From Acidobacteriota bacterium (GTDB lineage Bacteria > Acidobacteriota > Thermoanaerobaculia > UBA5066), in contig JAKOVQ010000017.1 in the NCBI GenBank assembly GCA_029781975.1, forward strand, positions 442,074-506,073: a stretch of 64,000 bases of DNA, in the 5' to 3' direction. Positions 29,355-58,757 of this stretch are shown here, in pieces; position 1 is the stretch's first letter, and every line of letters starts with the position of its first letter. Under the pieces are notes generated by a model. It had not been told where the DNA came from. It ran no database searches and saw only the letters and a program-made list of their open reading frames with translations. A program made the translations under genes and the position numbers.

Positions 29355-29369
29355 CGGCACGGCGCTTGC
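29355..29369 (+). promoter_or_regulatory. Sigma-54 (-24/-12) promoter for the 29399 gene
   Basis: CGGCAC-GGCGC-TTGC, followed by T. It has the invariant GG and GC with ten bases between and nine of ten consensus positions. The predicted start is at about 29381, with GGAGG at 29390 and ATG at 29399. Confidence 0.65.
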
Positions 29370-29398
29370 TCCTTCACGGCCTGCTTCTGGAGGAACGA

Positions 29399-30157
29399 AT
29401 GAAGAAACTGATGATCCTCGCGTCCGCCCTGATCCTGAGCGCTCCGCTCCTCGCCGAGGAGGCGCGCGTTCGCTCGCCCGGCCCGCTGGTCGTGGGGGCG
29501 GTGTCGCACCTCCTCCTGCCCACCTCTGCCTACGGCACCGGTCAGTTCGGGGCCGTCTTCAAGACGAAGATCAGCATCGCCAACGTCACGGGCTCCACGT
29601 ACGCGATCCGTGCCGGCTTCAGCACGCGGGACGGGGAGGTGGCTTCCCGGACCTTCACGATCTACGGCTACGAGACGCTCACCTTCGAGAACTTCCTCAG
29701 CGACGTCTTCGGGCTCAGCGGGGCGGGCGCCATCGACTTCGACAGCGGCGACCCCGCCTATCGGTTCATCGTCGCCGCCCAGGTCTACGTCGACGGCCCC
29801 AACGGACGGTTCAGCACCGCCGTGCAGTCGGCCGACGAGGCGGGGACGCTCACCTCCGGCATCCCCGGGTACGTGGTCGGGGTCAGCGTGAACGGATACG
29901 ACCGCACGAACCTCGGCTGCGCGAGCGACTCGGCCTTTTCCCAGACCATCACCGCCGACGTCTACGGTCCCGCCAACGAGTCGCTCGGCTCCTTCTCGTT
30001 CACGTTGAGCCCCTTCGGGTGGGAGCAGGTGGGGGTCGACATCGGCGTGACGAACGGCACGATGGTCGTCAGGAGCTCCGAGCGCGCCGTCTGCTTCGGC
30101 GTGGTCGTCGACAACGTCAGCAACGACGGCACCTTCCAGCTCGCCGTTCCGGACTAG
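29399..30157 (+). CDS. Secreted protein, paralogue of the C-terminal module of the 59618 gene
   Basis: 252 residues with a signal peptide (LMILASALILSAPLLAEE). The mature protein is beta-rich (GAVFKTKISIANVTGSTYAI; FTIYGYETLTFENFLSD) and ends FGVVVDNVSNDGTFQLAVPD. Its start and end resemble the C-terminal domain of the protein encoded at 59618-61261, which has AFYRTAVQLTNTSGS and ATVADNITNDPAIQI. GGAGGAACGA precedes the ATG. It is preceded by a sigma-54-type promoter and followed by a strong hairpin, so it is a single-gene unit. Function unknown; probably surface or periplasmic. Confidence 0.75.
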   Translation: MKKLMILASALILSAPLLAEEARVRSPGPLVVGAVSHLLLPTSAYGTGQFGAVFKTKISIANVTGSTYAIRAGFSTRDGEVASRTFTIYGYETLTFENFLSDVFGLSGAGAIDFDSGDPAYRFIVAAQVYVDGPNGRFSTAVQSADEAGTLTSGIPGYVVGVSVNGYDRTNLGCASDSAFSQTITADVYGPANESLGSFSFTLSPFGWEQVGVDIGVTNGTMVVRSSERAVCFGVVVDNVSNDGTFQLAVPD

Positions 30158-30171
30158 CCAGCCCCGACGAG

Positions 30172-30198
30172 CGCCCCCTCCCCGCCGGGGAGGGGGCG
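30172..30198 (+). terminator. Strong hairpin after the 29399 gene
   Basis: Perfect 12-base stem CGCCCCCTCCCC / GGGGAGGGGGCG with a three-base loop, 14 bases after the stop. No T run follows, so it may act as a stable 3' end or a factor-assisted terminator. Confidence 0.6.
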
Positions 30199-30272
30199 TG
30201 CGTCCTCCCCCTCGGCGGCGGGCGCCTGTTCCCCATTCTCTGGCCGATTGCCGGGGCACCCTGACCCGAGGG

Positions 30273-30491
30273 CTACTTCCTCCGTCCCACGAGGAGGAGA
30301 GCCCCTCCCACGACGATGGCGCCCACGCCCGCCCACAGGGGAACGTTCACGGTCTCCTTCTCCTTCACCGAGAGCTCCAGGGGACCGATCTTGGTCGAGT
30401 GGGTGTCCTTCGTGTAGGTGAACCCCCCGTAGATCAGCCCGAGGATGCCGGCCACGATCAGGACGATGGCGAGCACCTTCATTCCGCTCAT
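30273..30491 (-). CDS. Small two-helix membrane protein
   Basis: 72 residues: helix one LAIVLIVAGILGLIYGGFTY, a short polar loop (SVKEKETVNV), helix two GVGAIVVGGALLLVGRRK. It resembles the many short DUF3185-like membrane proteins found beside stress genes. ATG 30491 follows GGAGGGAAGAA. It lies downstream of the DUF6600 gene on the same strand, separated by a hairpin. Exact role unknown. Confidence 0.75.
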   Translation of the reverse strand: MSGMKVLAIVLIVAGILGLIYGGFTYTKDTHSTKIGPLELSVKEKETVNVPLWAGVGAIVVGGALLLVGRRK

Positions 30492-30525
30492 TTCTTCCCT
30501 CCTATCGGACCCGTCGGCGTTTGAG

Positions 30526-30542
30526 CCCCTCCGTTCGGAGGG
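30526..30542 (-). terminator. Hairpin between the DUF6600 gene and the small membrane protein gene
   Basis: Seven-base stem CCCTCCG / CGGAGGG around TT, about 85 bases after the DUF6600 gene stop on the minus strand. There is no T run. It is moderate evidence for a terminator. Confidence 0.45.
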
Positions 30543-30628
30543 AGTCGCCGAGCCTGCCGTCAGATGCGCGGGCCGTCCGCGACCAGGCCTCCGTTCGGCC
30601 CGGGTACCGCCAGGGCGTCGATCCGAGG

Positions 30629-32650: not shown

Positions 32651-32674
32651 GATCTTTGCCTCCTCCCATCGACA

Positions 32675-32689
32675 GCAAGTTCCGTTCCA
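32675..32689 (-). promoter_or_regulatory. Sigma-54 (-24/-12) promoter for the FecR/DUF6600 gene
   Basis: Minus-strand TGGAAC-GGAAC-TTGC, one base off the ideal. The start is predicted at about 32663, and the leader of about 13 bases carries GGGAGGAGG before ATG 32650. Confidence 0.65.
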
Positions 32690-32817: not shown

Positions 32818-32855
32818 CCGTGGGCCGGCCTCCGCCAGAGGCATCCGGGCTCGCC

Positions 32856-33533
32856 TCAGACGATGCGGTGGACCAATCGCCCCAGGGCGGCGGCGCCGAC
32901 CAGGGCGAGGAGCCCCATGCCTGCCGCGAGCGGGACCTGGCTGGCGGTGCGGGGCATCCGCCTCTCCTGCTTCTCCGCGACCTGCACCGGAGGCGCCGGA
33001 GCGGGAGCCACCGCGGCCCCCGTCCTCTCCTCGTAGACGGGCTGGACGGCGACGGTCTTGAGCAGCTCCTCGGTCACCGGGCCGGCCGCCTCGTATGCAG
33101 GGACCGGCTCCTGGACCCGACGCGCGAGCTCGAGGGCCCTGTCGCGCGGATAGACGATGTCGTGGCCGCCGCTTCCCACGTTGGCGGGGTACCACGTCCG
33201 CAGCGCCATCGGCAGCTCGGCGGTCGCCGGGTAATAGACGAAATGGCTCTTCACGCGCTTCTCCATCCGCGGATGGTTGGTGGAGAGAACGGTCGCGAAG
33301 ACCTCGCTCTTGTCCACGCTCCTCACCTGGAGCATGTCTCGGTTCTCCTGGAGGGGTACGACCTTGATCCGGTAGGTCCCTGGCTGGAGGATGGTCCCTC
33401 CGACGTCGACCGGCTCCGTCACCGTCATGATCGAGGCTTCCACGCTCTGACCGGTCGCCACGTGCGCAATCAGCCCGGCGCCAGCCAGGGTGGTCACGAG
33501 AGCCCCTGCGAACCACACGCTCGGCTTCTTCAT
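32856..33533 (-). CDS. Exported protein with LPxTA-like C-terminal sorting tail
   Basis: 225 residues. An N-terminal signal (WFAGALVTTLAGAGLIAHVA) is followed by a beta-rich domain (GGTILQPGTYRIKVVPLQ; FATVLSTNHPRME) and a Pro/Ala-rich stretch. The C-terminus is RMPRTASQVPLAAGMGLL, a hydrophobic helix, and a final basic LVHRIV. Motif, helix and basic end are the tripartite form of sortase/exosortase signals; the motif resembles LPxTA tails of some Gram-negative surface proteins. No sorting enzyme is in the window. A sigma-54-type promoter is 65 bases upstream. The main domain is not recognised. Confidence 0.75.
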   Translation of the reverse strand: MKKPSVWFAGALVTTLAGAGLIAHVATGQSVEASIMTVTEPVDVGGTILQPGTYRIKVVPLQENRDMLQVRSVDKSEVFATVLSTNHPRMEKRVKSHFVYYPATAELPMALRTWYPANVGSGGHDIVYPRDRALELARRVQEPVPAYEAAGPVTEELLKTVAVQPVYEERTGAAVAPAPAPPVQVAEKQERRMPRTASQVPLAAGMGLLALVGAAALGRLVHRIV

Positions 33534-33597
33534 CTCTTGCTCCTTTTCTGGCGCAACGCCGCCGGGATGGTGGTCAGCGCGCCTCGCCCGATGGACC

Positions 33598-33612
33598 GCA
33601 ATCGCCGTGCCA
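33598..33612 (-). promoter_or_regulatory. Sigma-54 (-24/-12) promoter for the sorted surface-protein gene
   Basis: Minus-strand TGGCAC-GGCGA-TTGC matches all ten core consensus positions. The predicted start is about 33586, giving a leader of about 53 bases to ATG 33533. Confidence 0.75.
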
Positions 33613-35673: not shown

Positions 35674-36672
35674 TCAGAAGTCGAGAGTCGCGGTGAGACC
35701 CAGCGATCCACTGCTCACGACGGGGAGGAGCGTCAGGCGTGCCCCGGTGCTCTCCGGCTCCCTCTCTCCGCTCCGGAGCCGCCGGTTGAAGTGAACGACG
35801 GAGCGGCCGACAAGCGTGCCGACGAGAGCTCCCGCCACGACGTCGGTCGGGAAGTGCTTACCCCGCTGCACGCGCACGTAGGCCGCGACCGCGGCCGTCC
35901 CGTAGGCCGTCACCTTCACCCAGAGCTGGTCGTACGACGTCGCGATCACCGAGGCCACGGCGAAAGCCTGGGTGGCGTGACCCGAGGGGAAGGAGCGCCC
36001 TTCGAACGGGCGGAACGAGTACGCCCCCTGCTCCTCCGTCGGCCGCTCGCGCCCGACCAGCGTCGAGGAGACGGGGGTGATGATCCCGCTCGCGATCAGG
36101 CTGGCGACGAGGCCGTCCAGGCAGACGTTCTTCGCCTTCGAGTCGTGCCCGATGGCCCCGGCCAGATAGAACCCGCCGAGGAGGACGAACGAGCGTCCGT
36201 CGCCGAGCCCGTGCGCCGTCTCCCCGACGAAGCCCAGCGTCGTGCCGCGCTCCCGGGCCGCGTCGCTCAGCGACTCGTCCGCGAGGGAGAGCACGGCGAG
36301 AGAGGCCACGGACGCCGAGAACAGGCGCCACTCGCGCCCCTGCCAGCGGTAGGGCGCCGCCAGGACGTGCCCCGTGTCGAGGAGCACCATCTTCGGGAAC
36401 GACGGCGGGCGGTACGGTGGGGGCTCCTCGACGGGAGGCGCCTCCATCTTTGGCTCGACTTTCGCCTCGCCGTTCGCCTCGCCGTTCGCCTCGCCGTTCG
36501 CCTCGCTCCTGGCCTGCTCGCCTTCGCCCTTGCCGCCGGCCCGGACCGCCGCGCCCGCCGGCGAGCGAAGGACGGCCGCTCCCTGCGCGGCCGCGAGCGC
36601 CGCCATCGCGCAGGCCGTGACGACCAGGAGTCTCGCCAGGACCCGAACCCGGGTCGGCCGGGCGCTTGTCAT
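35674..36672 (-). CDS. PAP2-family phosphatase with repetitive N-terminal linker
   Basis: 332 residues. A signal or anchor helix is followed by a linker with three GEAN-type repeats and a Pro/Glu stretch, then the PAP2 domain: LVGRERPTEE, RSFPSGHATQAF (catalytic His) and QRGKHFPTDVVAG. It is probably a periplasmic lipid-phosphate phosphatase. Motif order and residues are complete. It is upstream of the DUF3943 gene and likely shares its transcript. A sigma-54-like site places the transcription start one base before this ATG, so leader and start deserve checking. Confidence 0.88.
   Translation of the reverse strand: MTSARPTRVRVLARLLVVTACAMAALAAAQGAAVLRSPAGAAVRAGGKGEGEQARSEANGEANGEANGEAKVEPKMEAPPVEEPPPYRPPSFPKMVLLDTGHVLAAPYRWQGREWRLFSASVASLAVLSLADESLSDAARERGTTLGFVGETAHGLGDGRSFVLLGGFYLAGAIGHDSKAKNVCLDGLVASLIASGIITPVSSTLVGRERPTEEQGAYSFRPFEGRSFPSGHATQAFAVASVIATSYDQLWVKVTAYGTAAVAAYVRVQRGKHFPTDVVAGALVGTLVGRSVVHFNRRLRSGEREPESTGARLTLLPVVSSGSLGLTATLDF
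36461..36506. repeat. Nearly four copies of a 12-base repeat in the PAP2 gene
   Basis: TTCGCCTCGCCG repeats with a perfect 12-base period, coding on the minus strand for repeated GEAN. It lies in a linker, so copy-number change would be tolerated. Confidence 0.85.
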
Positions 36673-36684
36673 GCCGTGCGGAGA

Positions 36685-36699
36685 GCACGTTCCGTGCCG
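36685..36699 (-). promoter_or_regulatory. Possible sigma-54 (-24/-12) promoter for the PAP2-DUF3943 operon
   Basis: Minus-strand CGGCAC-GGAAC-GTGC. The GG and GC and their spacing are right, but two less conserved bases differ. The predicted start (36673) is one base before the ATG. Weaker than the other nine. Confidence 0.45.
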
Positions 36700-37692: not shown

Positions 37693-38811
37693 CTACCTGG
37701 GCCCCTTTCCCCCGCGCGGCTCGCCCTTCTTTCCTAGGTCCTGGTCCTTCCCACGCTGCTGGCCGCCCGGCGCCGCCTTCTCGCGGCCTTGCGGCGGCGG
37801 CGCGGAGCGAGCCGTCGGGGCACGATCCGCTCGACCGCCCTGGCTGGCCACGGGCCGCTGCGGCGGCTGCTGCTGGCGCTGTGGTTGCTGCTGCGGTCTT
37901 GGCTGCGGCTGCTGGCGCTGCGGCTGCTGCTGCGGCCTTGCCTGCTCCTGGCGCTGCGGCTGCTGCTGTGGCCTTGCCCGCTGCTGCTGGCGCTGCGGCT
38001 GCTGGGCGGGTTGCGCCGCATGGGGGGCCTTCTGCTGACGGGAGGCTCGCGCGGCCCTCACCTCCTGCGCCGGAGCCACGATGGCCAGATGGCCGCTCCT
38101 CCGAACGCCGCCCGCCGAAGCGGCCCGAGGCGTGGTCCGTGCCGCGCCGATCTCGCGCGTCTCGACCCTCCGGCCCGTCGCCCGCTGGACGGTGGCCAGG
38201 GGCAGCGCCACGTTCGTCACGACGCCGCCGGTGACCCCGAAGCGGGTCGCGGGCCTCGCCTCGCGAAAGATCTCCTCGTTGCGGCGGCGCTCGACGCGCA
38301 CCGACATGACGTTCGTCCCGACGAATCGGTCCGTCGGCACGAAGACGTACTGCGTCTGGCTCACCACCACGGGCCTTCCGGAGTAGCCCGAGCGGCCGAA
38401 GGTCACCGTCGGGGGCATCGGCGCCCAGCCCACGTAGCGGTCGCTGTAGGACCACGTCACCCACGCCGGCGCCCAGACCGTTCCGGGCACCCAGACCCAG
38501 CCGTGCCGTGAGACGAAGGCCCAGGTCCCGTAATGGTAGGGGTCGCCCCCCCACGGGTCGTTCGACATCCAGGTCCACCCGTATCTCGTGTAGATCCACT
38601 CCCCGTTCGAATAGGGCTGCCAGCCCGCGTCGACCCCGCGGGGCGCCCAGCATTCGCCGTAGCTGCAGTCGACCCAATCCCCGTACGGGGACAGCTCGTC
38701 GTAGAAGCCCCCGATGGTCACGCTGACGCTCACCTGCGCCTGCGCCCGCTGCGCGGGGACCAGGATCCCGAGCGCACCCGCGAGAATGGCTGCCACCGCA
38801 AGTCCCTTCAT
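37693..38811 (-). CDS. DUF6600 secreted protein with glutamine/proline-rich tail
   Basis: 372 residues. A signal peptide (LAVAAILAGALGILVPAQRA) leads into a DUF6600 domain with repeated aromatic phrases (WQPYSNGEWIYTRYGWTW; DPYHYGTWAF; GWVWVPGTVWAP). From about residue 280 the chain is Gln/Pro/Arg-rich with repeats such as RPQQQPQRQ, and it ends in a Gly/Lys tail. GGGAGGACGACC before ATG 38811 sets the start. A strong sigma-54-type site is upstream. It is a paralogue of the 30629 gene without the FecR part. Role unknown, probably in the periplasm or on the surface. Confidence 0.85.
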   Translation of the reverse strand: MKGLAVAAILAGALGILVPAQRAQAQVSVSVTIGGFYDELSPYGDWVDCSYGECWAPRGVDAGWQPYSNGEWIYTRYGWTWMSNDPWGGDPYHYGTWAFVSRHGWVWVPGTVWAPAWVTWSYSDRYVGWAPMPPTVTFGRSGYSGRPVVVSQTQYVFVPTDRFVGTNVMSVRVERRRNEEIFREARPATRFGVTGGVVTNVALPLATVQRATGRRVETREIGAARTTPRAASAGGVRRSGHLAIVAPAQEVRAARASRQQKAPHAAQPAQQPQRQQQRARPQQQPQRQEQARPQQQPQRQQPQPRPQQQPQRQQQPPQRPVASQGGRADRAPTARSAPPPQGREKAAPGGQQRGKDQDLGKKGEPRGGKGPR

Positions 38812-38929
38812 GGTCGTCCTCCCTCTGCGCGAGCCGGCAGGCATCGTCCTGGCGCGGAGCGCCGCCGCGCGACTCATGGCGGAGGTCCCCTCTTTCGGGG
38901 GCCTTCCTCGGCCTGCAGAGGCCCGAGGC

Positions 38930-38944
38930 GCAATTCCCCTGCCA
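38930..38944 (-). promoter_or_regulatory. Sigma-54 (-24/-12) promoter for the second DUF6600 gene
   Basis: Minus-strand TGGCAG-GGGAA-TTGC: invariant GG/GC, correct spacing and a full TTGC. The predicted start is about 38918, giving a leader of about 107 bases. Confidence 0.7.
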
Positions 38945-39183: not shown

Positions 39184-39198
39184 TGGCACACGGCTTGC
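39184..39198 (+). promoter_or_regulatory. Sigma-54 (-24/-12) promoter for the YqjE-DUF3618-BON-Lmo0937 operon
   Basis: TGGCAC-ACGGC-TTGC matches every core position. The predicted start is 39210, one base before ATG 39211, so either the mRNA is nearly leaderless or translation starts later. Confidence 0.75.
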
Positions 39199-39210
39199 GC
39201 TTCGCTGTGC

Positions 39211-39615
39211 ATGTCCGTCAGGCCATGGGAGTCCGCCCCGTCGCGAGAGGTTTCGCTGCGGGAGCTTCTCCGGAGGCTCGCCGAGCACGGAGCCTCGCTC
39301 CGCGAGGCGCAGGTCGACATGGCGCGCGCGGAGCTCACGAGGGACGTCAAGGTCCAGGTTCGGCGCCTGGGCGCGGTCGTCGCGGCAGCGCTCCTCGGCC
39401 TGTGCGGGCTGCAGCTCCTGGTCGTCGCGCTCGTCCTCGGCCTCGCGACGAGGCTCGACGCGTGGCTCGCCGCCGTGATCGTCTCCGTGCCGCTCCTCCT
39501 CGCCGGAGCGGCCCTCCTGGCGCGGGCGAGGCTGGCGGGGCGGGCGCCGTTCCTCGAGAACACCCGCGAGACGCTGAAGGAAGACCTGCGATGGCTCGGA
39601 ACGCAGTTGCGCTGA
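39211..39615 (+). CDS. YqjE/holin-superfamily-like membrane protein
   Basis: 134 residues. An amphipathic N-terminal helix (LRELLRRLAEHGASLREAQ, then DMARAELTRD) precedes two membrane helices (AVVAAALLGLCGLQLLVVALV; LAAVIVSVPLLLAGAALL). This matches the phage-holin-superfamily III/YqjE proteins, stress-linked inner-membrane proteins. The family start agrees with ATG 39211 or a nearby codon. It overlaps the next gene by 25 bases, as yqjE and yqjK-like pairs often do. Confidence 0.78.
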   Translation: MSVRPWESAPSREVSLRELLRRLAEHGASLREAQVDMARAELTRDVKVQVRRLGAVVAAALLGLCGLQLLVVALVLGLATRLDAWLAAVIVSVPLLLAGAALLARARLAGRAPFLENTRETLKEDLRWLGTQLR

Positions 39616-39932
39616 CGAGGGGGACGGCCACCCGGACCGACGACGTCGGGCGACTGCGGCAGCGGGTCGACGACCTCCGGACCGAGCTCGGTCGGGACGC
39701 GGACGAGCTCGCGACCCGGATCCGGGAAGCCTTCGACGTCCGGCGCCAGGTGGCGCGGCACCCCGTCGTCGCGACGGCCCTCCTCCTCGGCGGGGCGTTC
39801 GTCGTCGCGAGGATCGTCACGTCGCTCCTGCAGGGCCCGCGGCGGACCGCCCCGACGTCCGCGCGATCGAGACCTGTCCCGCTCCGCCCTCCGCCCGGTC
39901 GAAGCCGAAGCCGCACCTCCATCCGCGCCTGA
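39591..39932 (+). CDS. DUF3618/YqjK-like short membrane protein
   Basis: 113 residues. The N-terminal polar helix has LRQRVDDLRTELGRDADELA, recalling the short helix of DUF3618 proteins. RQVARHPVVATALLLGGAF gives one membrane helix, and the tail is Arg/Pro-rich. ATG 39591 lies inside the previous gene, following GGAAGACCTGCG. In enterobacteria such genes occur together as the yqjCDEK stress group. The family match is moderate. Confidence 0.65.
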   Translation: MARNAVALTRGTATRTDDVGRLRQRVDDLRTELGRDADELATRIREAFDVRRQVARHPVVATALLLGGAFVVARIVTSLLQGPRRTAPTSARSRPVPLRPPPGRSRSRTSIRA

Positions 39933-39989
39933 GATCCCTCGAGGCGCCCGAACGGCGGTCCCTCAGACCGCAGAAAAGGAACGACGACG

Positions 39990-40556
39990 ATGAACGCGAA
40001 CACTCTCACGAACCGCCTGGCCGGCGTGGCGACGGCCGCTCTCCTCGGTGCCGGGCTGCTGGGGCTCGCCGGGTGCGCCTCCACGATGGTCCCCAAGGAG
40101 ACGCGGCAGTCGGACTCGAGCGTCACCTCCGTGGTCCAGGCGTCTCTGGAGGCGAACGACAAGGTCAAGGCGCGACAGGTGGACGTGGAGACCCGGGAGG
40201 GCGTCGTGTACCTCACCGGAGTCGTCGACACCGAGGAGGCCCGGCGCGAGGCCGGCCGGGTCGCCTGGCGCACGGAGAACGTGCGCGGCGTCATGAACGA
40301 CCTCACGGTCGGAGAGCGGACGGTCGGCAACTGGCTCGACGACATGCTGATCAGCTCGAAGATCAAGGCGAAGCTGATCGCCAACTCCGAGATCCGGGCC
40401 GGGGACATCGACGTGAGCTCCTCACAGGGCGTCGTGACGCTCATCGGCCGCGTCAGCACCTCCTCGATCAGGAGCGACGCGGAGCGCATCTCGCGCGGGA
40501 CCAGGGGAGTCACGGACGTGCGCAACGACCTCCTGGTCGGCATGGCGCGGTACTAG
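39990..40556 (+). CDS. OsmY-like lipoprotein with two BON domains
   Basis: 188 residues. The signal peptide ends in the lipobox LAGC (GLLGLAGCAST), so it is probably a lipoprotein. Two BON domains follow: VTSVVQASLEANDKVKA with VYLTGVVDTEEAR, and SKIKAKLIANSEI with VVTLIGRVSTSS. BON domains bind membranes and are typical of osmotic or envelope-stress proteins. AAAAGGAACG precedes the ATG. It probably lies in the operon driven from 39184. Confidence 0.92.
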   Translation: MNANTLTNRLAGVATAALLGAGLLGLAGCASTMVPKETRQSDSSVTSVVQASLEANDKVKARQVDVETREGVVYLTGVVDTEEARREAGRVAWRTENVRGVMNDLTVGERTVGNWLDDMLISSKIKAKLIANSEIRAGDIDVSSSQGVVTLIGRVSTSSIRSDAERISRGTRGVTDVRNDLLVGMARY

Positions 40557-40580
40557 GAACGGCCGGACAGGAGGACCGCC

Positions 40581-40730
40581 ATGCTCTGGACCATCTTCGT
40601 CATCCTCGTCATCCTCTGGCTCCTCGGCATGGTCACCTCGTACACGATGGGAGGCCTGATCCACGTCCTCCTCGTCGTGGCGGTGATCATCCTCGTCGTG
40701 AGGCTCCTCTCCGGGCGACGCGTCCTCTAG
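40581..40730 (+). CDS. Lmo0937-family small membrane protein
   Basis: 49 residues, short enough to be missed easily: MLWTIFVILVILWLLGMV, a short turn with SYTMGGLIHVLLVVAV, and a basic end RLLSGRRVL. Length, the LWLLG phrase and the GGLIHVLLVVA helix match the Lmo0937 family. GGAGGACCGCC precedes the ATG. It is 24 bases after the BON gene and forms the end of the operon. Function unknown, stress-linked in relatives. Confidence 0.85.
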   Translation: MLWTIFVILVILWLLGMVTSYTMGGLIHVLLVVAVIILVVRLLSGRRVL

Positions 40731-45248: not shown

Positions 45249-46535
45249 TCAGAAGCCGCCGGGGCGCCCGTGCCCGGTCTGCTGGCCGCCGCTCATCGGG
45301 TTGGCGGCCGCCGCCGCGGGCGTCCGGGAGGCCGGGACGACGCCGTCGATGACCTTCATCCCTTCGGTCACGTTCCGTCCCTCGACCTGGGTGAACTGGC
45401 CGTCGCTGATGCCCGTCCGGACGCGCGTGACCTGGAGCTTCCCCTTCGCGTCGAGGGTGTACAGCGTGCCTTCGCCGCCTCCGGGCGAACCGCCCTCGCT
45501 CCTGCGGGCGCGCGCTCCTCCGGTTCCGGCCCGAGGGCTCGCCGAAGGCGACGCGCCGGTCGCCGACGCGGACTCCCCGGAAGAGCGCGGCGTCCCGAAG
45601 CGGGCGAGCACCTCGTCGCTCGGCTTGTAGCGCAAGGCCGCGTTCGGCACCTCGAGGACGTTCTCGGCCGACTTGACGAGGAAGTCGACGCGAGCCGTCA
45701 TCCCGGGGAGCAGCCTGCCCCCGGGATTCTCGAGCGTCACGACGACGGTGTAGTTCACGACGTTGTCGGCCGTGGTGGACTGCAGGCGCACCTGCTGGAC
45801 GATTCCCGGGAACTTCTGTCCCGGCAGCGCCTGGACGGTGAACGTGACGGGCTGTCCCTGGCCGATCCGCACGATGTCGCTCTCCCCCACCAGCGCCAGG
45901 ATCTGCATCCGCGAGAGGTCGTTGGCGATGAGGAAGAGCTGCGGGGCGGAGAGGCTCGCGGCGACGGTCTGCCCGAGGTTGACGTTCCGCTCGACGACGA
46001 CGCCGTCGATGGGGGCGTAGATCGACGTGAAAGAGAGGTTCTGCTTCGCGCGGTCCAGCGCCACGGCTGCCGACCTCACCGTCGCGTCGGCCGCCTGCTG
46101 CGTCGACCCGCCCTGCTCGAGAGCGCTTCCCGCGATGAGGCCGGCGGTCGACAGGGCGCGGTTTCGGTTCTGGTCGCTCCTGGCCTGGTTGGCCTGCGCC
46201 TGCACCCTCTCGAGACTCGCCCGGGCGTCGGCCACCCCGTGCTGGGCGATGGTCGGGTCGATCCGGGCGAGGAGCTGCCCCTTCTTCACGTGGTCGTTGA
46301 AGTCGACGAGGAGCGCGGAGATCTGCCCCGAGACCTGGGTGCCGACGCTCACGGTGGTGACGGCCTGGAGGGTCCCCGTCGCGGAGACCAGGGCCCGGAT
46401 GGTCCCCCGCCCCACGGTCGTGAAGCGGAACGCGGGCGCCTTCTGCCGGGAGGCGAGGCTGAAGGCCCCGAAGGCCACGCCCGAGGCGGCCGCCACGAGA
46501 CCGAGCGCTAGGACGATTCTCTTGTAGGGGAGCAT
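45249..46535 (-). CDS. MacA-like periplasmic adaptor (HlyD family)
   Basis: 428 residues. An N-terminal anchor helix ([19 protein letters not shown]) is followed by the lipoyl-type half motifs ([38 protein letters not shown]), a helical hairpin rich in Ala/Gln ([19 protein letters not shown]), and beta-barrel and proximal domains. A Ser/Gly-rich insert near residue 300 is unusual. It links the MacB pump to an outer-membrane channel, which is not encoded in the window. It is first in the operon; a sigma-54-type site is about 130 bases upstream. Confidence 0.93.
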
Positions 46536-46665
46536 GATTTCCCTCTCCGGAATGTAGATTCTTCAAGCTCGTCGGGGCTCGCCCGGCCGGACCTCCACCT
46601 TGCGGCCTGTCGCGAGGGTCTCGCCGGGCATCCCATCCTCTGCACCTCGACCGCGGCCGGGTGTT

Positions 46666-46680
46666 GCAAATCGAGCGCCA
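46666..46680 (-). promoter_or_regulatory. Sigma-54 (-24/-12) promoter for the macAB-like operon
   Basis: Minus-strand TGGCGC-TCGAT-TTGC, one base off the core consensus. The predicted start is about 46654, leaving a leader of about 119 bases. It is back to back with the 46785 promoter. Confidence 0.6.
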
Positions 46681-46784: not shown

Positions 46785-46799
46785 TGGCAGCCGACTTGC
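46785..46799 (+). promoter_or_regulatory. Sigma-54 (-24/-12) promoter for the YXWGXW-type gene
   Basis: TGGCAG-CCGAC-TTGC. The predicted start is about 46811, just at the GGAGG of ATG 46822, giving a leader of about 11 bases. Confidence 0.68.
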
Positions 46800-46821
46800 G
46801 GGGCGTCGGTGGAGGCAAACC

Positions 46822-47283
46822 ATGCTCGAGAAGATGCTGAAGTTGGGTCTCGCGACGACGTTCGCCGTCCTGACGGCGCTGCCGGCGCCGGCGCAGGTCC
46901 AGGTGCGGGTCGGCGTACAGCTCCCCGGCCTGGAGATTCGGGTCGGCCACCGGGCGCCGCCGAGGCTGCTGCGGGAGCACCGGCCGATGAGCCCCGGTCG
47001 CGGGTACATGTGGATCCCGGGCGCCTGGGACTGGCAGAACGACGACTGGGCCTGGATCGCCGGTCGTTGGGACCGCCCGAACGCGCGGCGTGCCCGCTGG
47101 ATCAGGCCTCGGTACATGCGGGAGGGCGCAGCCTGGCGCTACGAGCCCGGGCACTGGTCGAACCAGCGGGTGGTCGAGGGAGAGGACTACAGGCGCTGGA
47201 GGGACGAGAGCCGCAGGAACCGCGACCAGGGCCGCCATCGCGGTCGAGACCGCCGCGATCGCGGTGACCGCCGGCCGCAGTGA
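46822..47283 (+). CDS. YXWGXW-repeat-like secreted protein
   Basis: 153 residues. A signal peptide (LKLGLATTFAVLTALPAPAQ) is followed by aromatic repeats of the W-x2-G-x-W kind: YMWIPGAWDWQNDDWAWIAG, then RWDRP, and AAWRYEPGHW. The C-terminus is strongly basic (RNRDQGRHRGRDRRDRGDRR). These YXWGXW-type proteins are small periplasmic or outer-membrane proteins of unknown role, common in Acidobacteria and Proteobacteria. GGAGG is seven bases from the ATG, and a hairpin follows the gene. Confidence 0.8.
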   Translation: MLEKMLKLGLATTFAVLTALPAPAQVQVRVGVQLPGLEIRVGHRAPPRLLREHRPMSPGRGYMWIPGAWDWQNDDWAWIAGRWDRPNARRARWIRPRYMREGAAWRYEPGHWSNQRVVEGEDYRRWRDESRRNRDQGRHRGRDRRDRGDRRPQ

Positions 47284-52600: not shown

Positions 52601-52930
52601 TTCGACCCCGAGGAGGTCCTGTCCCGCGTGGAGGGGGACCGCGACCTCCTCCGCGAGATCGTGGACCTCTTCGTCGAGGAGACTCCGGGGATGCTCGCCG
52701 AGATCCGCCGCTGCGCCGGCGAGGGCGACGCCGGGGGCCTCGAGAGGGTGGCGCACCGGCTGCGCGGCACGCTCCTGAACTTCGGCGCGCGCCCGGCGGC
52801 GGAGGCCGCGCTCGCGCTCGAGCAGATGGGGCGCTCGGGGGACCTGGCCGGGGCGCCGTCCCGGCTGTCGGAGCTCGACCTCGAGCTCCGGGGCCTCTCG
52901 GTCGGCCTGAAGGCGATGGTCGGCACGTGA
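49619..52930 (+). CDS. Hybrid sensor kinase: HAMP-GAF-HisKA-HATPase-REC-REC-HPt
   Basis: 1103 residues. An N-terminal helix, a periplasmic segment of about 120 residues and a second helix are followed by a HAMP region, a GAF-like domain (about 270-430), HisKA with [12 protein letters not shown] (His466), and an HATPase with DTGIGIP and GGTGLGLSI. Then come two receivers, [11 protein letters not shown] (Asp758) and [12 protein letters not shown] (Asp901), and an HPt domain with [13 protein letters not shown] (His1046). This is an unorthodox multistep phosphorelay kinase. The ATG overlaps the previous stop as ATGA. It probably signals to the GGDEF regulator in the same operon. Confidence 0.95.
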
Positions 52931-53005: not shown

Positions 53006-54790
53006 TCAGGCGGACGTCGGCCGGCCGGCGCCACCGCCGAGCCTGACCCGGGTGAACGCGAGAGCGGAGCGGACCACCTCGATCAGGACGCGCAGGCGCC
53101 CGACTCGGACCGGCGGATCGAGCGCCCCGGCGAGGAACCGGCGCAGCGCCTCGTTGCGGCGGAGCTTGCCGCTCGACGTGCGCGGGAGCGTCCCCGGCTC
53201 GAGCAGCCGAACGGTGTGGGGGCGGATCCCCGTGTGCGAGAGGACGGCGCGGCGGATCCGCTCGACCGTCCCTTCGTCGTCCGCGGGCGGCCCCGTGCCC
53301 CTGGCGCGTTCCGCGAGGACGAGCAGCTGCTCGCCGTCCTCCCCTTCCGGGACGAACCCGACGGCGACGGCGCACCCGGCCCGCACGCCCTCGACGCCCG
53401 CGAGCGCCTCCTCGAACTCCTGGGGAAGGTGGTTCGCTCCCCGGATGACGATGACGTTCTTCTCGCGGCCGCAGACGTGGAGCTCGCCCCCGGCGACGAA
53501 CCCGAGGTCTCCGGTGTCGAGCCACCCGCCCGAAAGCGCGCTCGCCGTGGCCTCGGGCTGGCCGAAGTAGCCCGCCATCACGGACGGACCGCGGACGAAG
53601 ATCCGCCCGACCCGAAGCTCCCCGAGGACGCTCCCGTCCGGGCCCCGGACCTCGACGTCGGTGCCCGGCACGGGCGTCCCGACCGAGACGACGGCGCGCG
53701 GGCCGTCCACGGCCTCGCCCGTCGCGGCGAGCCGCACCGGGTCGACGCGGGTCGCCTTCACCTCCCGGTCGCCGGGCGTGAAGGTGACGGCGAGGGCGGC
53801 CTCCGCGAGGCCGTAGACGGGCCGCAGGGCCCTCCGGTCGAACCCGAACGGCCCGAAGCGCCGGGCGAATCGATCGAGGGAGTCGAGCGACACCGGCTCG
53901 GCCCCGCAGAGGGCGACCTGCCAGCACGAGAGATCGGCGCCCCCCAGATCCTCGTCCCGCACCCGCTTGGCGCACAGCGCGTAGGCGAAGCTCGGCGCCA
54001 CGGAGATCGTGGCGCGATGCCGCGCGATCGCCCGGAGCCACAGCGCCGGCCTGGCCAGGAAGAGCTCGGGCGGGATCAGGACGAGCGGCCCCGGGTAGTA
54101 GACGGCCTGGAGGAGGCAGCCGATCAGCCCCATGTCGTGGTAGAGCGGCAGCCAGGAGACGCCCTTCTGCGGCAGGGCCTCCTCCCGGGGGAGGAGCGCC
54201 CGGAGGGCCGCGAGCTGGGCCATCAGGCCGTCGTGCGAGAGGGCGACCGGCCTCGGGTCCGCCGTCGATCCGGAGGAGAACTGGATCAGGCCGAGCGCCC
54301 CGGGACCGATCTCGGCCTCGAGCTCGCCAGCGGGGCCGAGGTCCCCGAGCGTCACGCACCCGAGCGGCGGGCGAGACGACTCGATCGCCTTCCCGAGGAG
54401 CGAGCGGGTCGTGGCGTCGGCGAGGACGAGCCGCGCCCCGACGGCGGCGATCATCCTCGACGTGGAGACGAGGTACTCCGCGAGCCGCCCGAGGCGGACG
54501 GGCGGGTAGAGCGGGACCGGCACGGCCCCGGCGAGGAGCACCCCGAAGAAGGCCTCCAGGAACGCCGGCGACGTCGGGAAGACGAGGGCGACGCGGTCGC
54601 CGGTCTCGACCCCCCGGGCCCGGAGCGCGCCCGCCGTCCGGCGGGCACGGGCTCGGACGTCGCCGTAGGTGACGAAGGTCTCGCCCTCCGTCCGGTCGAC
54701 GAAGGTGAGGCCCGAGGCGCTCGCCGCGGCCGCGGCGAGCGCCTCGTTCACGCTCCGGAACCTCGGATGAGGGAGGCGGGGACCCTTCAC
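53006..54790 (-). CDS. Fatty-acyl-AMP ligase (FAAL-type AMP-dependent synthetase)
   Basis: 594 residues. Adenylation fold: ATP loop FSSGSTADPRP (171-181, with Arg where Lys is usual), the FAAL phrase SWLPLYHDMGLIG, VALCGAEPV, PVYGLAEAALAVTF, LDTGDLGFV, and a C-terminal RTSSGKLRRNEALR with the catalytic lysine. This is the branch that activates fatty acids and loads them onto an ACP rather than CoA. GTG 54790 overlaps the ACP stop by four bases. Together with the ACP it probably supplies the starter to the type III PKS. Chain length is unknown. Confidence 0.9.
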   Translation of the reverse strand: MKGPRLPHPRFRSVNEALAAAAASASGLTFVDRTEGETFVTYGDVRARARRTAGALRARGVETGDRVALVFPTSPAFLEAFFGVLLAGAVPVPLYPPVRLGRLAEYLVSTSRMIAAVGARLVLADATTRSLLGKAIESSRPPLGCVTLGDLGPAGELEAEIGPGALGLIQFSSGSTADPRPVALSHDGLMAQLAALRALLPREEALPQKGVSWLPLYHDMGLIGCLLQAVYYPGPLVLIPPELFLARPALWLRAIARHRATISVAPSFAYALCAKRVRDEDLGGADLSCWQVALCGAEPVSLDSLDRFARRFGPFGFDRRALRPVYGLAEAALAVTFTPGDREVKATRVDPVRLAATGEAVDGPRAVVSVGTPVPGTDVEVRGPDGSVLGELRVGRIFVRGPSVMAGYFGQPEATASALSGGWLDTGDLGFVAGGELHVCGREKNVIVIRGANHLPQEFEEALAGVEGVRAGCAVAVGFVPEGEDGEQLLVLAERARGTGPPADDEGTVERIRRAVLSHTGIRPHTVRLLEPGTLPRTSSGKLRRNEALRRFLAGALDPPVRVGRLRVLIEVVRSALAFTRVRLGGGAGRPTSA

Positions 54791-55047
54791 CGCGCCCGGC
54801 CCTCGCGGACGGCGCGCTCCACGACGACGACGAGGTCCTCCACGGTCACGACGGACGGGGCATCGGTCCCGGCCAGGCTCACCCGGAACCGGTCCTCGAG
54901 GGCGACGGCCAGGACGAGGGCGCCGACCGAGTCGACCTGGAGGTCCGCGGCCAGCTGGTGGTGAAGCTCGACGGGACCGGCGACCTCCAGGTCGGCAGCG
55001 AGGGTCCTCCGGATCTCGGCGAGGACCTCGGCACGGACGTCATCCAT
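54787..55047 (-). CDS. Acyl carrier protein
   Basis: 86 residues, four-helix carrier-protein pattern with the phosphopantetheine serine in LQVDSVGALVLAVALE (Ser40). Acidic second helix, no signal peptide. It starts inside the methyltransferase gene end (eight-base overlap), and its stop overlaps the FAAL start by four bases. As it is encoded between a methyltransferase and a FAAL, it is probably the dedicated carrier for this type III PKS operon, although it could also serve the FAS-like operon 30 kb away, which has none. Confidence 0.92.
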   Translation of the reverse strand: MDDVRAEVLAEIRRTLAADLEVAGPVELHHQLAADLQVDSVGALVLAVALEDRFRVSLAGTDAPSVVTVEDLVVVVERAVREGRAR

Positions 55048-55618
55048 GCGGACCTCGAGGCAGCAGCCGGGATCGCCCTTCGAACGCGGCGGCGTAGGGC
55101 CGGCCCAGTGCCTGCTCCTCGGCGGGGATGCGGACGGCGAGCAGCGCCCCGTTCAGGGCGGAGAACGTCAGCGCGGTGAGCCACGCGCCGTGGATCAGGG
55201 GAACGCAGGCCATCTCGAGGACCACCGCCAGGTAATTCGGATGCCGCAGGAAGCGGTAGGGGCCGCCGGTGACCGGCGTGGCCCCGGGGATGGCGATGAT
55301 CCGCGTGTTCCAGCGCCACCCGAGCGTCCGGACGGCCCACCAGCGCAGCACCTGGGCTCCGAGGGCCGCGCCCAGGGCCCCGAACCCGAGGGCGCCCGGA
55401 AAGGGGCGCTTCAGGACGAGCACCTCGCCCGCGCACGCGAGGGGGAAGAGGGTGTGGAGCACGACCATGACCGCGTAGGCGCCGCGCCCCGTCTCGACGC
55501 CGCCCGCCGCGAGGGCGGCTCGAGAGTTGCGGCGCGAGACGAGGAGCTCCGCCCCCCTCTCCAGGCCGAGGAGGCAGAGGAACCCGAGGTAGAGGAGGAC
55601 GGAGGCGGGGGCTACCAC
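55040..55618 (-). CDS. ICMT-family (isoprenylcysteine-type) methyltransferase
   Basis: 192 residues, about four membrane helices. Family motifs are YRFLRHPNYLAVVLEMACVP and the late RIPAEEQALGRPYA, the SAM-binding part. GTG 55618 overlaps the type III PKS stop. In Bacillus the ICMT-like BpsB methylates the alkylpyrones made by the type III PKS BpsA, so here too an O-methylation of an alkylpyrone or resorcinol is likely. That role is by analogy. Confidence 0.85.
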   Translation of the reverse strand: MVAPASVLLYLGFLCLLGLERGAELLVSRRNSRAALAAGGVETGRGAYAVMVVLHTLFPLACAGEVLVLKRPFPGALGFGALGAALGAQVLRWWAVRTLGWRWNTRIIAIPGATPVTGGPYRFLRHPNYLAVVLEMACVPLIHGAWLTALTFSALNGALLAVRIPAEEQALGRPYAAAFEGRSRLLPRGPHG

Positions 55619-56703
55619 TGCAGGAGGACCAGCTCCGAGCAGAAGCCGGGCCCCATCGCCATCAGGAGCCCGCGGTCTCCCCTGGCAGGCTCGCCCGACG
55701 CGAGGAGCTCTCCGAGGACGAAGAGCACCGCCGCCGAGGAGAGGTTCCCGGTCTCCTTCAACGATCGCCACGAGCGCGCGAGGGCCCCCTCGGGTAGCTC
55801 CAGCGCGCTCTCGAACGCCCGGAGCACCTTCGGCCCGCCGGTGTGGGCGATCCAGTGGCGGACGGCCGAACGCTCGAGGCCGCTCTTCGCCAGGAAACCC
55901 TCCACGTCGCCGCGGACGTTCCGGCGCACCACCTCCGGCACCTTCGCCGAGAGGACCACCTTGAAGCCCGATTCCACGATGTCCCACCCCATCACGCGCT
56001 CCGTCCCCGGGTAGAACACGGAGCCCGTCGCCACGACGGCGGGACCGCCCGTCGAGCTCCCCCCGTCACGGTCGGCGCCCGCGAGGACGACCGCGGCCGC
56101 GCCGTCGCCGAAGAGGCCGGACGAGATGACGTTGGGGATCGAGAGGTCCTCCAGCTGGAGCGTGAGCGAGCAAAGCTCGACGGACAGGAGGACGGCCACC
56201 TGGTCCGGAAAGGCGGCGAGCAGGTCCGAGGCACGCGAGATGCCGGCCGCACCGCCCGCGCAGCCCAGGCCGAAGAGGGGCGAGCGCCGGACGTCGCGCC
56301 TCAGGCCCAGCCTGTTGACGAGCCGTGCGTCGATGCTCGGAGTCGCGATCCCCGTCGTCGTGACGAAGAAGAGGTGGTCCACGTCCGCGGGCGAGAGCCC
56401 GGCCCGCCCGAGCGCGTCCCGGATCGCCGCCTCGCCGAGGTCCACCGCGGCTCGGGTCCACGCCTCGTTCCGGGCCGCGAACGACGTCATCTCCCGGTAC
56501 GCCTCGAGCGGCAGGGCCAGGTAGCGCCCGGACACCTGGACGGCGCGGTGGAGCTCGTCCAGCCGGTCCGGGTTGAAGTGGGCCCCGGCCCAGGCGTCGC
56601 GAAACGCGGCGATGAGGGTCTCCTGGCTGGCGTAGTGCTCGGGGAGCGCCCGGCCCACGGCGCGGATGCGGACAGGTAGCCGCGGGGGCCGCTCGGTCGT
56701 CAC
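55612..56703 (-). CDS. Type III polyketide synthase (chalcone/stilbene synthase family)
   Basis: 363 residues. It has the full Cys-His-Asn triad: FGLGCAGGAAG (Cys148), IAHTGGPKVL (His287) and ETGNLSSAAV (Asn320), plus the C-terminal loop AMGPGFCSELVLLQW. Enzymes of this sort extend a fatty acyl or other starter with malonyl units and cyclise it to a pyrone or resorcinol. GTG 56703 is the first gene of a four-gene operon with methyltransferase, ACP and FAAL, all overlapping. The starter and product cannot be read from sequence. Confidence 0.93.
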   Translation of the reverse strand: MTTERPPRLPVRIRAVGRALPEHYASQETLIAAFRDAWAGAHFNPDRLDELHRAVQVSGRYLALPLEAYREMTSFAARNEAWTRAAVDLGEAAIRDALGRAGLSPADVDHLFFVTTTGIATPSIDARLVNRLGLRRDVRRSPLFGLGCAGGAAGISRASDLLAAFPDQVAVLLSVELCSLTLQLEDLSIPNVISSGLFGDGAAAVVLAGADRDGGSSTGGPAVVATGSVFYPGTERVMGWDIVESGFKVVLSAKVPEVVRRNVRGDVEGFLAKSGLERSAVRHWIAHTGGPKVLRAFESALELPEGALARSWRSLKETGNLSSAAVLFVLGELLASGEPARGDRGLLMAMGPGFCSELVLLQW

Positions 56704-56856
56704 CGGGGAAACTTAGCATGCCGTCCCGGGGCCCGAGCCGGGCTCCGTGCCGCCCGAGGCGCCGCCGCTGTCCGTGCGGTCGGCACCGCGGCACCGTCGG
56801 TCCCTTCCGATCGCGTCGTCCCCCGCGCGATCCGGCTCTCGTGAGCGCGGCCACCA

Positions 56857-56871
56857 TGGCAGGGGACTTGC
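56857..56871 (+). promoter_or_regulatory. Sigma-54 (-24/-12) promoter for the hydrolase-WrbA operon
   Basis: TGGCAG-GGGAC-TTGC followed by T. The predicted start is about 56883, which leaves a leader of about 205 bases to ATG 57088. A weaker second -24/-12-like match lies some 27 bases further on. Confidence 0.6.
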
Positions 56872-57087
56872 TGCTCGGTGCGGCCAGGAGCTTGCGCCCG
56901 TGCCGGACGATTCAGTCGCGATCCTCGGGCCGGCCCTCTCGAGGAGAGGGTGCGGCCGCAGCCCGGCGCCGGAGCCGGCGGGCGGCGCATCCGCCTCCTC
57001 ACCGCTTCCCCCTTCCTGGTCGCCGACCGTGGTCGCCCTGCGGACACGCGAAGGCGACGGACCCGTCGCCGCGAAAGGAGCCGCGAG
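56872..57087 (+). other. Long leader upstream of the hydrolase gene
   Basis: If the 56857 promoter is used, about 205 bases precede the ATG. No gene is convincing here, and no riboswitch-like structure was recognised by eye. GC-rich inverted repeats are present but short. GAAAGGAG before ATG 57088 is a normal ribosome site. Confidence 0.4.
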
Positions 57088-57912
57088 ATGAGCACGATCA
57101 CCACGAGGGACGGCACGCAGATCTCCTACAAGGACTGGGGCACGGGACAGCCCGTGGTCTTCAGCCACGGGTGGCCCCTCAACGCGGACAGCTGGGAGGC
57201 CCAGATGGTGTTCCTCGCCTCCCACGGCTACCGGTGCATCGCCCACGACCGCCGCGGCCACGGCCGCTCGAGCCAGCCCTATGGCGGCAACGACATGGAC
57301 ACCTACTCCGACGACCTCTCGGAGCTCATCGAGCGGCTCGACCTCGAGCGCGCCGTCCTCGTCGGGTTCTCCGCGGGCGGCGGGGAGGTCGCCCGCTACG
57401 TGGGCCGCCACGGCACGAAGCGGCTGGCCAAGGTCGCGCTCGTCTCCGCCGTCCCGCCGCTGATGCTGAAGACCGCGGACAACCCCGGCGGGCTGCCGAT
57501 GGAGGCGTTCGACGCGCTCCGCCTCGGCTCGATCGCCGACCGCTCGCAGCTCTACAAGGACCTCGCCAGCGGCCCGTTCTTCGGGGCCAACAGGCCCGGC
57601 GCCCGGGTCTCGCAGGGTGCGATCGACTCGTTCTGGCTCCAGGGCATGCAGGCCGGCCACACGAACGCCCTCGACTGCATCAAGGCGTTCTCCGAGACGG
57701 ACTTCACCGAAGACCTCGCGAAGCTCGACGTGCCGACGCTCATCGTGCACGGCGACGACGACCAGGTCGTGCCGATCGGCGCGTCGGCTCTGCGTTCGGC
57801 GAAGCTGGTCAGGAACGCGACCCTGAAGGTCTTCGCGGGCGCTCCCCACGGGCTGACCTACACGCACAAGGGTCAGCTCGACGCGGCCCTGCTGGCATTC
57901 CTCGGAACCTGA
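57088..57912 (+). CDS. Alpha/beta hydrolase (non-haem chloroperoxidase/esterase type)
   Basis: 274 residues. Oxyanion region [13 protein letters not shown], nucleophile elbow GFSAGGGEV (Ser95), acid in HGDDDQVVP (Asp225) and catalytic His254 ([10 protein letters not shown]). This is the cofactor-free haloperoxidase/esterase branch, whose natural substrates are usually small esters or lactones. It is followed by wrbA at 51 bases. In many bacteria both are general-stress genes, which fits the promoter type. Confidence 0.93.
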
Positions 57913-57963
57913 GGCGGGCCGGCGGGCGCCGGCACCCGGACACGCACCCTGAGGAGGGACGAC

Positions 57964-58566
57964 ATGACGAAGGTCCTCGTTCTCTACTACAGCATGTACG
58001 GCCACGTCGAGACCCTGGCGTACGCGGTGGCCGAAGGCGTGCGCGACGTCGAAGGCGCCGCGGCCAGCATCGCGCGCGTGCCCGACCTCGTGCCGGAGGA
58101 CGTGGCACGGAAGGCCGGCGCGAAGCTCGATCAGGCGGCGCCGATCGCGACCGTGGACGAATTGCCGGGCTTCGACGCCATCCTCTTCGGGACGCCGACC
58201 CGGTTCGGCAACATGTGCGCGCAGATGCGGAACTTCCTCGACCAGACCGGCCGTCTGTGGCTGAAGGGCGCGCTGATCGGCAAGGTGGGGAGCGTCTTCA
58301 CGTCGACGGCCACGCAGCACGGAGGACAGGAGACGACGATCACGTCGTTTCACAGCACCCTGCTGCATCACGGCATGGTCGTCGTGGGGGTGCCGTATTC
58401 CTGCCAGGAGATCATGACGATGAGCGAGATCACCGGCGGCTCGCCGTACGGGGCGGGCACCCTCGCCGGCGGAGACGGCAGCCGGGTCCCGTCGGAGAAC
58501 GAGAAGAAGATCGCCCGCTTCCAGGGGAGGCACGTGGCGGCCTTGGCCAGGAAGCTCTCCGCCTGA
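57964..58566 (+). CDS. wrbA: NAD(P)H:quinone oxidoreductase WrbA
   Basis: 200 residues, flavodoxin-like fold. [16 protein letters not shown] is the FMN phosphate loop, followed by [32 protein letters not shown] and [13 protein letters not shown]. WrbA is a tetrameric FMN quinone reductase that reduces quinones by two electrons and limits radical formation. GAGGAGGG-type ribosome site before the ATG. It shares a transcript with the upstream hydrolase. Assignment is secure. Confidence 0.95.
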
Positions 58567-58742
58567 CGGCCGCCGCTCCTCGCCGGGGCCGCGAGGAACC
58601 CGGCAATCGGTGCAAGCGGGCCGGCACGAATTACAACCCGGTGCGTCCCTGCGTCCGTTCCGCGGGGACCCGCCGGGGCTGGCCTCGGCCGTGGGGGTCT
58701 CAGGGGCGGACGATCGGCCGCCGGGCGGGCGCCACGTGGCTC

Positions 58743-58757
58743 TGGCACGGCTCCTGC
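58743..58757 (+). promoter_or_regulatory. Sigma-54 (-24/-12) promoter for the Ser/Thr-rich lipoprotein gene
   Basis: TGGCAC-GGCTC-CTGC, with one base off in the -12 block. The predicted start is about 58769, next to AGGAG, which fits translation from ATG 58780. Confidence 0.6.

Follow-up and report, generated by a model that had tools for sequence, protein, structure and literature searches.

Sigma-54 Promoter-Like Sites in the Window

The window described here is a stretch of 64,000 nucleotides (nt) from the genome of an Acidobacteriota bacterium (C15:442074-506073, where C15 is contig JAKOVQ010000017.1 of assembly GCA_029781975.1). The assembly sums up to 5.37 Mb in 54 contigs, is 96% complete and has a G+C content of 72%. 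Ten sites in the window resemble promoters of the sigma factor RpoN (sigma-54), and they belong to an island of envelope and stress genes (C15:471.4-534.4 kb, i.e., window position 29.36 kb to about 92.3 kb) that probably constitutes one sigma-54 regulon. Sites were scored with a matrix whose weights we set to approximate the published -24/-12 consensus, at a threshold of 9 bits and a stricter one of 13 bits; the full word is TGGCA-N6-TTGC, and its reversed pattern served as the control. Genes were called with a simple codon-usage caller, so start codons are provisional, and family names come from Pfam and NCBIfam profile searches. The source genome is G000, and G001-G012 etc. are the genomes of family relatives.

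The ten sites had been listed in an earlier note on this DNA. All of them are present with the GG-N10-GC core, at coordinates that were correct to within one base, and they are exactly the intergenic matrix matches of at least 9 bits in the window. Each lies between genes and, as the note had it, faces the adjacent gene, and the note's remark that the first 26 kb holds nothing of such quality agrees with the lack of any intergenic match of at least 9 bits in bases 1-29354. Its statement that most sites carry the full word was slightly generous, since five of the ten do (33598, 38930, 39184, 46785, and 56857). The others read CGGCA/TTGC (29355), TGGAA/TTGC (32675), CGGCA/GTGC (36685), TGGCG/TTGC (46666), and TGGCA/CTGC (58743).

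The first matrix match, CGGCACGGCGCTTGCT (29355..29370, + strand), stands before an open reading frame (29399-30157, +) for a secreted-looking protein of 252 amino acids (aa) without a family match; in G009, a full site is directly followed by a 73% orthologue, and G001 has a 30% match. The site TGGAACGGAACTTGCT (32674..32689, -) lies 24 nt before the gene of a 673-aa DUF6600 protein (PF20245; 30629..32650, -). It is followed by the full word TGGCACGGCGATTGCG (33597..33612, -), found by matrix and word, which faces the gene of a sorted surface protein (32856..33533, -) whose C-terminal signal, MPRTASQVPL, was read in the sequence; this protein is of the same kind as one encoded beside a sortase beyond the window. 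The weaker site CGGCACGGAACGTGCT (36684..36699, -; 10.5 bits) is positioned 12 nt before a gene of the PAP2 phosphatase family (Pfam; 35674..36672, -). A second DUF6600 protein, of 372 aa (Pfam; 37693..38811, -), is encoded behind TGGCAGGGGAATTGCG (38929..38944, -), a full word and matrix match whose 15 letters recur in G001, G008, and G010, where, as far as examined, they do not stand before a DUF6600 gene. On the other strand, the full word TGGCACACGGCTTGCG (39184..39199, +; matrix and word match) heads an operon-like run (39211..40730, +) of a YqjE-like/holin-X gene (start 39211 or 39319), a gene for a 113-aa protein, BON, and DUF5670. Its 15 letters recur in G005 and in G009, where this full word lies ahead of the hybrid kinase gene.

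Further along, the matrix match TGGCGCTCGATTTGCA (46665..46680, -) faces the gene of a MacA-like membrane fusion protein (45249..46535, -), which is followed by MacB-type ABC genes (43278-45235). The full word TGGCAGCCGACTTGCG (46785..46800, +; matrix and word match, 11.0 bits) precedes the gene of a WXXGXW repeat protein (Pfam/NCBIfam; 46822..47283, +). Another full word, TGGCAGGGGACTTGCT (56857..56872, +; matrix and word match), ends 216 nt before the called start of genes for an alpha/beta hydrolase and then an FMN_red/flavodoxin-like protein, the WrbA of the earlier note (57088..58566, +). The last matrix match, TGGCACGGCTCCTGCT (58743..58758, +), faces the gene of a small lipoprotein-like protein (58780..59214, +; LytA-like match far under cut-off), and the G010 orthologue of this gene lies behind TGGCACGACTTCTGCT.

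The cluster of sites extends 28 kb beyond the window end, which was overlooked in the earlier note. Behind sites in that part lie genes for a YkuD L,D-transpeptidase, a run of BON, DUF5670, MPRTAS protein and sortase, a 200-aa protein followed by an AI-2E-type transporter, a DUF2383-like protein, two B12-radical-SAM-like proteins, a DUF883-like protein, CsbD followed by a 232-aa protein and Transgly_assoc, a ferritin-like protein, a 500-aa protein (sub-threshold Omp85 match), a 2739-aa GH94 enzyme of the cyclic-glucan-synthase type, and an RRM protein. The BON proteins of the set are of the OsmY type. The sorted surface protein that had been noticed earlier has a counterpart, so that the set holds two proteins with the MPRTAS signal together with the sortase gene. 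This sortase exceeds the cut-offs of PF04203 and of the general model TIGR01076, and falls below those of two class D models (132.9 of 140 and 123.4 of 165 bits). Among 59 proteins of the island region that were scanned with Pfam, there was no PEP-CTERM match and one IPTL-CTERM protein, and the single exosortase match in the genome is on C4, outside the island.

Clustering and Placement of the Sites

Taken by itself, the GG-N10-GC core means nothing, for the two strands of the window carry 836 and 933 copies of it; the case rests on the fuller word and on its placement. When the spacer of TGGCA-Nk-TTGC was varied, the window gave five matches with k=6 and none with k=2-5 or 7-11. The off-by-one control word with N7 occurs four times in the whole genome and not once in the window. 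A longer consensus with at most two mismatches gave 13 matches, a number that none of 100 shuffles reached, against 5.3 expected. Genome-wide, the full word occurs 23 times and its reversed control 10 times, and eight of the 23 fall within 50 kb (C15:475671-525415; Poisson tail 9e-11, or about 2e-8 once the choice of window is roughly corrected for). For a looser word, TGGCA-N7-TGCW, the genome has 25 matches, seven of them in C15:498930-516750. The reversed form of this looser word is found 172 times, and such words are thus rare in this genome, perhaps through selection against them outside promoters or through a codon effect.

The earlier note had named equal density inside genes as the observation that would speak against promoters, and the density is far from equal. 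In C15:420001-579737, where intergenic DNA makes up 8.2%, all 17 matches of at least 13 bits are intergenic; 16 of them fall in C15:474747-534368 and the other is C15:428637. A background of 440 kb from the same genome holds five matches of this strength, three of them intergenic, including C15:428637 already counted among the 17. At the lower threshold of 9 bits, C15:471300-534500 contains 22 intergenic matches, every one facing the adjacent gene, while the genes themselves hold six matches of 9-13 bits and none of at least 13 bits. In sequence and placement, the sites thus show traits of sigma-54 promoters, namely GG and GC ten apart in TGGCAC-N5-TTGC, a fixed spacing, orientation toward a gene and depletion from coding sequence.

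Outside the cluster there are 15 full words. Thirteen were examined and 12 could be placed, 11 in intergenic DNA (10 facing the next gene) and one inside a gene; for C5:29692, no downstream gene was called in the stretch. Behind one of these words stands a further DUF6600 gene, which shares 66% identity with that of the window. A profile search found a single RpoN in the genome. Very probably, then, the sites are genuine sigma-54 promoters, from which the genes behind them would be transcribed.

Regulatory Genes in the Cluster

The window has no activator gene, as had been stated, but an NtrC-type enhancer-binding protein (EBP) is encoded 7.1 kb past its end (C15:513218-514600). The protein has the marks of a response-regulator-type EBP, with receiver, Sigma54_activat (AAA+) and HTH_8 domains over cut-off and a GAFTGA motif read in the sequence. 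It is the only one of the 41 Sigma54_activat matches in the genome that lies inside the 63-kb cluster. Assignment to described EBP families was tried and rejected, as its scores are under cut-off for PrsR (TIGR02915, 361.8 of 502.6 bits), NtrC (TIGR01818, 382.2 of 558.6 bits), and PspF (TIGR02974, 282.4 of 443.55 bits).

Upstream of the EBP gene, and overlapping it by 4 bases, is the gene of a 226-aa protein (C15:512541-513221) with no Pfam match over cut-off. An alignment of six sequences shows invariant LRHALA-PLSA and DGG-L blocks, which show a weak collinear match to the H-box and G-box regions of the island's kinase. We tentatively take the likeness to be that of a ChpT/HPt-like phosphotransferase, a type with a conserved His on a helix pair and a degenerate ATPase domain. 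A hybrid kinase with HisKA, HATPase and receiver domains is encoded at C15:518658-520319; it has no sensor domain in Pfam and is apparently soluble. Its best NCBIfam model is TorS (250.6 of 676.5 bits), and PrsK (TIGR02916) does not appear within the best 25 of 157 families, so that it scores no higher than the last of these.

The EBP operon has a sigma-70-like TTGACG-N17-GATNCT upstream in four genomes, and no sigma-54 match of at least 9 bits faces it. Since this promoter of the regulator operon is sigma-70-like and conserved, the regulators would be present beforehand and the targets silent until a signal arrives. The hybrid kinase would then autophosphorylate and pass the phosphate via its own receiver domain to the putative 226-aa phosphotransferase, which would hand it to the receiver of the EBP encoded in the overlapping next gene. 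The AAA+ domain of the EBP would remodel the RpoN-polymerase at about 22 -24/-12 promoters. We infer this phosphate route, a stress signal at its head, and, more tentatively, a replacement of RpoS by the system; no protein passed the RpoS cut-off (TIGR02394) in 20 genomes searched, and one of 14 control genomes had one that did.

Conservation in Relatives and Beyond the Family

Orthologues of the EBP with 73-88% identity are found in seven of 13 family members. There is no match at 1e-100 in G003, G007, and G012, and in the remaining members the matches reach just 62-64%, nearer the range of paralogues. The nearly palindromic form TGGCACG-N3-CGTGC stands before the DUF2383-like gene in four of four genomes including the source, two of them near-identical and of one genus, and before the first radical-SAM-like gene in four of five genomes (G008 is without it); the flanks have diverged in both cases. 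At this radical-SAM-like gene (C15:514700), the -12 element GTGC is 12 nt from the ATG in four genomes, and its mRNA would therefore be almost leaderless if the called start is right. In G005, which has the nearest full-length EBP orthologue (86%), the gene order after the EBP is kept.

Of 69 full words examined at 60 loci in six relatives, 60 are intergenic (48 oriented toward the next gene and 12 otherwise) and nine are inside genes. The next genes include orthologues of BON, DUF5670, DUF202, coiled-coil, WXXGXW and Transgly_assoc genes, of the 252-aa protein, and of the hybrid kinase. In the four relatives that were not selected (G005, G001, G008, and G010), the first gene matches the island set at nine of 39 facing sites, namely DUF5670 three times and BON, DUF202, coiled-coil, WXXGXW, Transgly_assoc and the 252-aa protein (30%) once each. 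In G010, seven co-directional genes follow TGGCACGACTTCTGCT and encode the lipoprotein-like protein, DUF202, coiled-coil, CsbD, DUF5670, a sorted protein, and sortase; the orthologues of these genes lie at several places in the source genome. By these matches, relatives keep some of the putative promoters or have words of this kind ahead of orthologues located elsewhere.

Outside the family, the best match of the EBP in a named collection, which may omit near records, is in Gulbenkiania mobilis (Betaproteobacteria) with 47% identity. The surrounding 21 kb contain a hybrid kinase of 49% identity, BON, Transgly_assoc, CsbD, a sub-cut-off DUF883 and holin-X (YqjE-like), and the sigma-54-like words there are weaker, with A, G or C in place of T as the first letter. 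BON also occurs at loci of Gilvimarinus and Paraglaciecola, there with DUF883-like genes, and in a Sinobacteraceae bin, there with DUF1328 and a kinase of 46% identity.

One Regulon or Several Activators

The proposal of one RpoN-dependent envelope and stress regulon, as put forward in the earlier note, is supported by words that are clustered, intergenic and oriented, by the single RpoN, by a plausible EBP within the cluster and by relatives that keep some of this arrangement. We regard it as probable that the island EBP governs a single sigma-54 regulon for envelope and general stress, including the sortase and two sorted proteins. The earlier note had also called for the EBP and its binding sites. 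The gene was found in the cluster, and a shared upstream activator site was not; one activator for all promoters accordingly remains what we infer. In a motif search over 17 upstream regions, the best motif outscored all five shuffled sets under every one of four settings, but it did not hold up against real control sets (see below). The half-site TTCAA/TTGAA occurs in 22 of 83 site-bearing regions and 29 of 325 controls (p 6e-5), with controls unmatched for intergenic content and divergent regions counted twice, and as a pair it occurs in four of 83 test regions and three of 325 controls. The TTCAA/TTGAA dyad is a tentative candidate for the activator site.

Several observations, including the quality of those half-site controls, weigh against a single regulon. 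The common motif scored below all seven real control sets, taken upstream of other genes, in both settings that were rerun, and it was rejected as unspecific. The reading of the 226-aa protein as a degenerate kinase that may act as a phosphotransferase leans on a weak profile match (hhalign probability 3.7%, E 0.012), and comparison with PDB was poor (best E 0.099). The names DUF883, DUF2383, ferritin-like and first radical-SAM denote matches below the curated cut-off. In G005, the near side of the EBP locus is without the island genes. At 30 of the 39 facing sites in the four unselected relatives, the first gene has no island match; full words head other genes too, as is expected where many EBPs exist. 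Counts of the full word do not rise above those of its reversed-pattern control in 11 of the 18 relatives compared. Among 80 named EBP loci, in a survey whose queries included the own proteins of three of the loci, any of the stress families was found in eight and at least two in four. These counts do not support a stress module general to all relatives of the EBP; it marks a subset of EBP loci.

An unlikely alternative, though the one that survives best, is that the promoters are true sigma-54 promoters served by several activators, the island being a loose collection of envelope genes. Some of the promoters could answer to other activators, given the genome's 41 Sigma54_activat matches, and the lack of a shared site fits such an arrangement. 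Moreover, nine of the 15 full words outside the cluster are at most 10 kb from an EBP gene (about 14% expected, tail 4e-5), which suggests that sites tend to adjoin their own activators, and a paralogous trio of EBP, phosphotransferase-like protein and hybrid kinase, the kinase with a CHASE3 sensor, lies at C15:326636-330367 with sigma-54-like sites around it. However, the 63-kb cluster holds one EBP gene only, and several of the same families recur behind one sigma-54-like site in G010 and beside a homologous EBP in Gulbenkiania.

It is much less probable that the words, especially the near-palindromic GGCACG-N3-CGTGC, are ordinary repressor or activator sites near the start codon. Seven of the 22 sites have GTGC instead of TTGC and six of these are almost inverted repeats, and 12 of the 22 end at most 30 nt from the called start, both of which would suit such regulators; yet the asymmetric full words are clustered too, the orientation to the gene is fixed in 22 of 22 sites, and RpoN is present along with an EBP carrying GAFTGA. 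An artefact of chance or of composition in a genome of 72% G+C, to which the abundance of GG-N10-GC and the reversed-pattern result in the 11 relatives would lend themselves, can practically be dismissed, being contradicted by the wrong-spacing controls, the shuffles and the same-genome background as well as by placement, orientation and conservation.

Other Genes Near the Sites and Regulators

Some neighboring genes deserve mention in their own right. An operon-like set on the minus strand (53006-56658) encodes an AMP-ligase, an acyl-carrier protein, an ICMT-type methyltransferase and a type III polyketide synthase; it is located among the regulon genes, and no sigma-54 match of at least 9 bits lies ahead of it. 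Behind the WXXGXW gene, on the plus strand (47425-52930), is a signalling set that encodes a receiver-GGDEF protein, a periplasmic binding protein, and an Hpt-containing hybrid kinase of 1103 aa. The IPTL-CTERM sorting signal belongs to an ice-binding-like protein with Ig repeats (41833-43149, -), which has no sigma-54 site of its own. Near the paralogous trio, one of the sigma-54-like sites precedes the gene of a 77-aa protein, presumably a dodecin look-alike.

Comparison With Known Systems

The control of sorted surface proteins by RpoN, which the earlier note had mentioned for PEP-CTERM systems, is indeed described there. PrsK/PrsR are reported with sigma-54 sites before PEP-CTERM genes and outside coding sequence (PMC1569441), as is the RpoN dependence of one PEP-CTERM gene in Aquincola (PMC9850573). 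The island resembles PrsK-PrsR in having a sigma-54-interacting response regulator, a histidine kinase and -24/-12 sites ahead of genes for sorted envelope proteins. It differs in that its EBP fails TIGR02915, that it has a sortase and not an exosortase, and that its targets are stress and envelope families; PrsK is described as transmembrane, whereas the island kinase carries receiver domains and, by Pfam, lacks a membrane sensor domain.

In Escherichia coli, OsmY, YjbJ, and WrbA belong to the RpoS regulon. ElaB and YqjD are also reported to need RpoS (PMC6389858). The island shares with that regulon the families BON/OsmY, CsbD/YjbJ, DUF883-like/ElaB-YqjD, YqjE and WrbA-like, while its sigma factor is of another class and its control would depend on an activator.

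Among the EBP regulons of Desulfovibrio vulgaris, DVU3305 is listed under 'General stress response, transmembrane transport' and DVU3381 under 'Envelope stress response' (PMC4641369). These likewise assign stress genes to a sigma-54 response regulator, so that sigma-54 control of stress genes is not new in itself. In that listing, each of the two regulons has two operons, whereas the island has about 22 promoters together, and CsbD is not mentioned in the main text (PMC4641369). Sigma-54 has also been viewed as a controller of the bacterial exterior (PMC3162934), which is a likeness to the island; the excerpt of that work contains no clustered stress/sortase island. No description of such a sigma-54 stress/sortase island was found among the matches listed from the open-licence literature.

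Implications

The general stress responses described so far are mainly those under RpoS, SigB, and EcfG. We suggest, tentatively and as a possibility that may well not hold, that where RpoS is absent, a sigma-54 phosphorelay composed of a hybrid kinase, a degenerate-kinase phosphotransferase and an EBP serves as the control of general and envelope stress. If true, bacteria would have one more solution in addition to RpoS, SigB, and EcfG/PhyR, in which an ATP-dependent and tightly off sigma-54 switch governs the same kinds of small stress proteins. The module of CsbD, BON, DUF883-like, YqjE-like and Transgly_assoc would be common to distant groups, with sortase-anchored surface proteins built into it here, and the related EBP/kinase pair of Gulbenkiania mobilis, a deposited strain, offers a testing ground. 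For the bacterium itself, DUF6600, DUF5670, and WXXGXW would gain a regulatory home, and its sortase, in a cell with outer-membrane-type proteins, would become a testable part of the stress programme.

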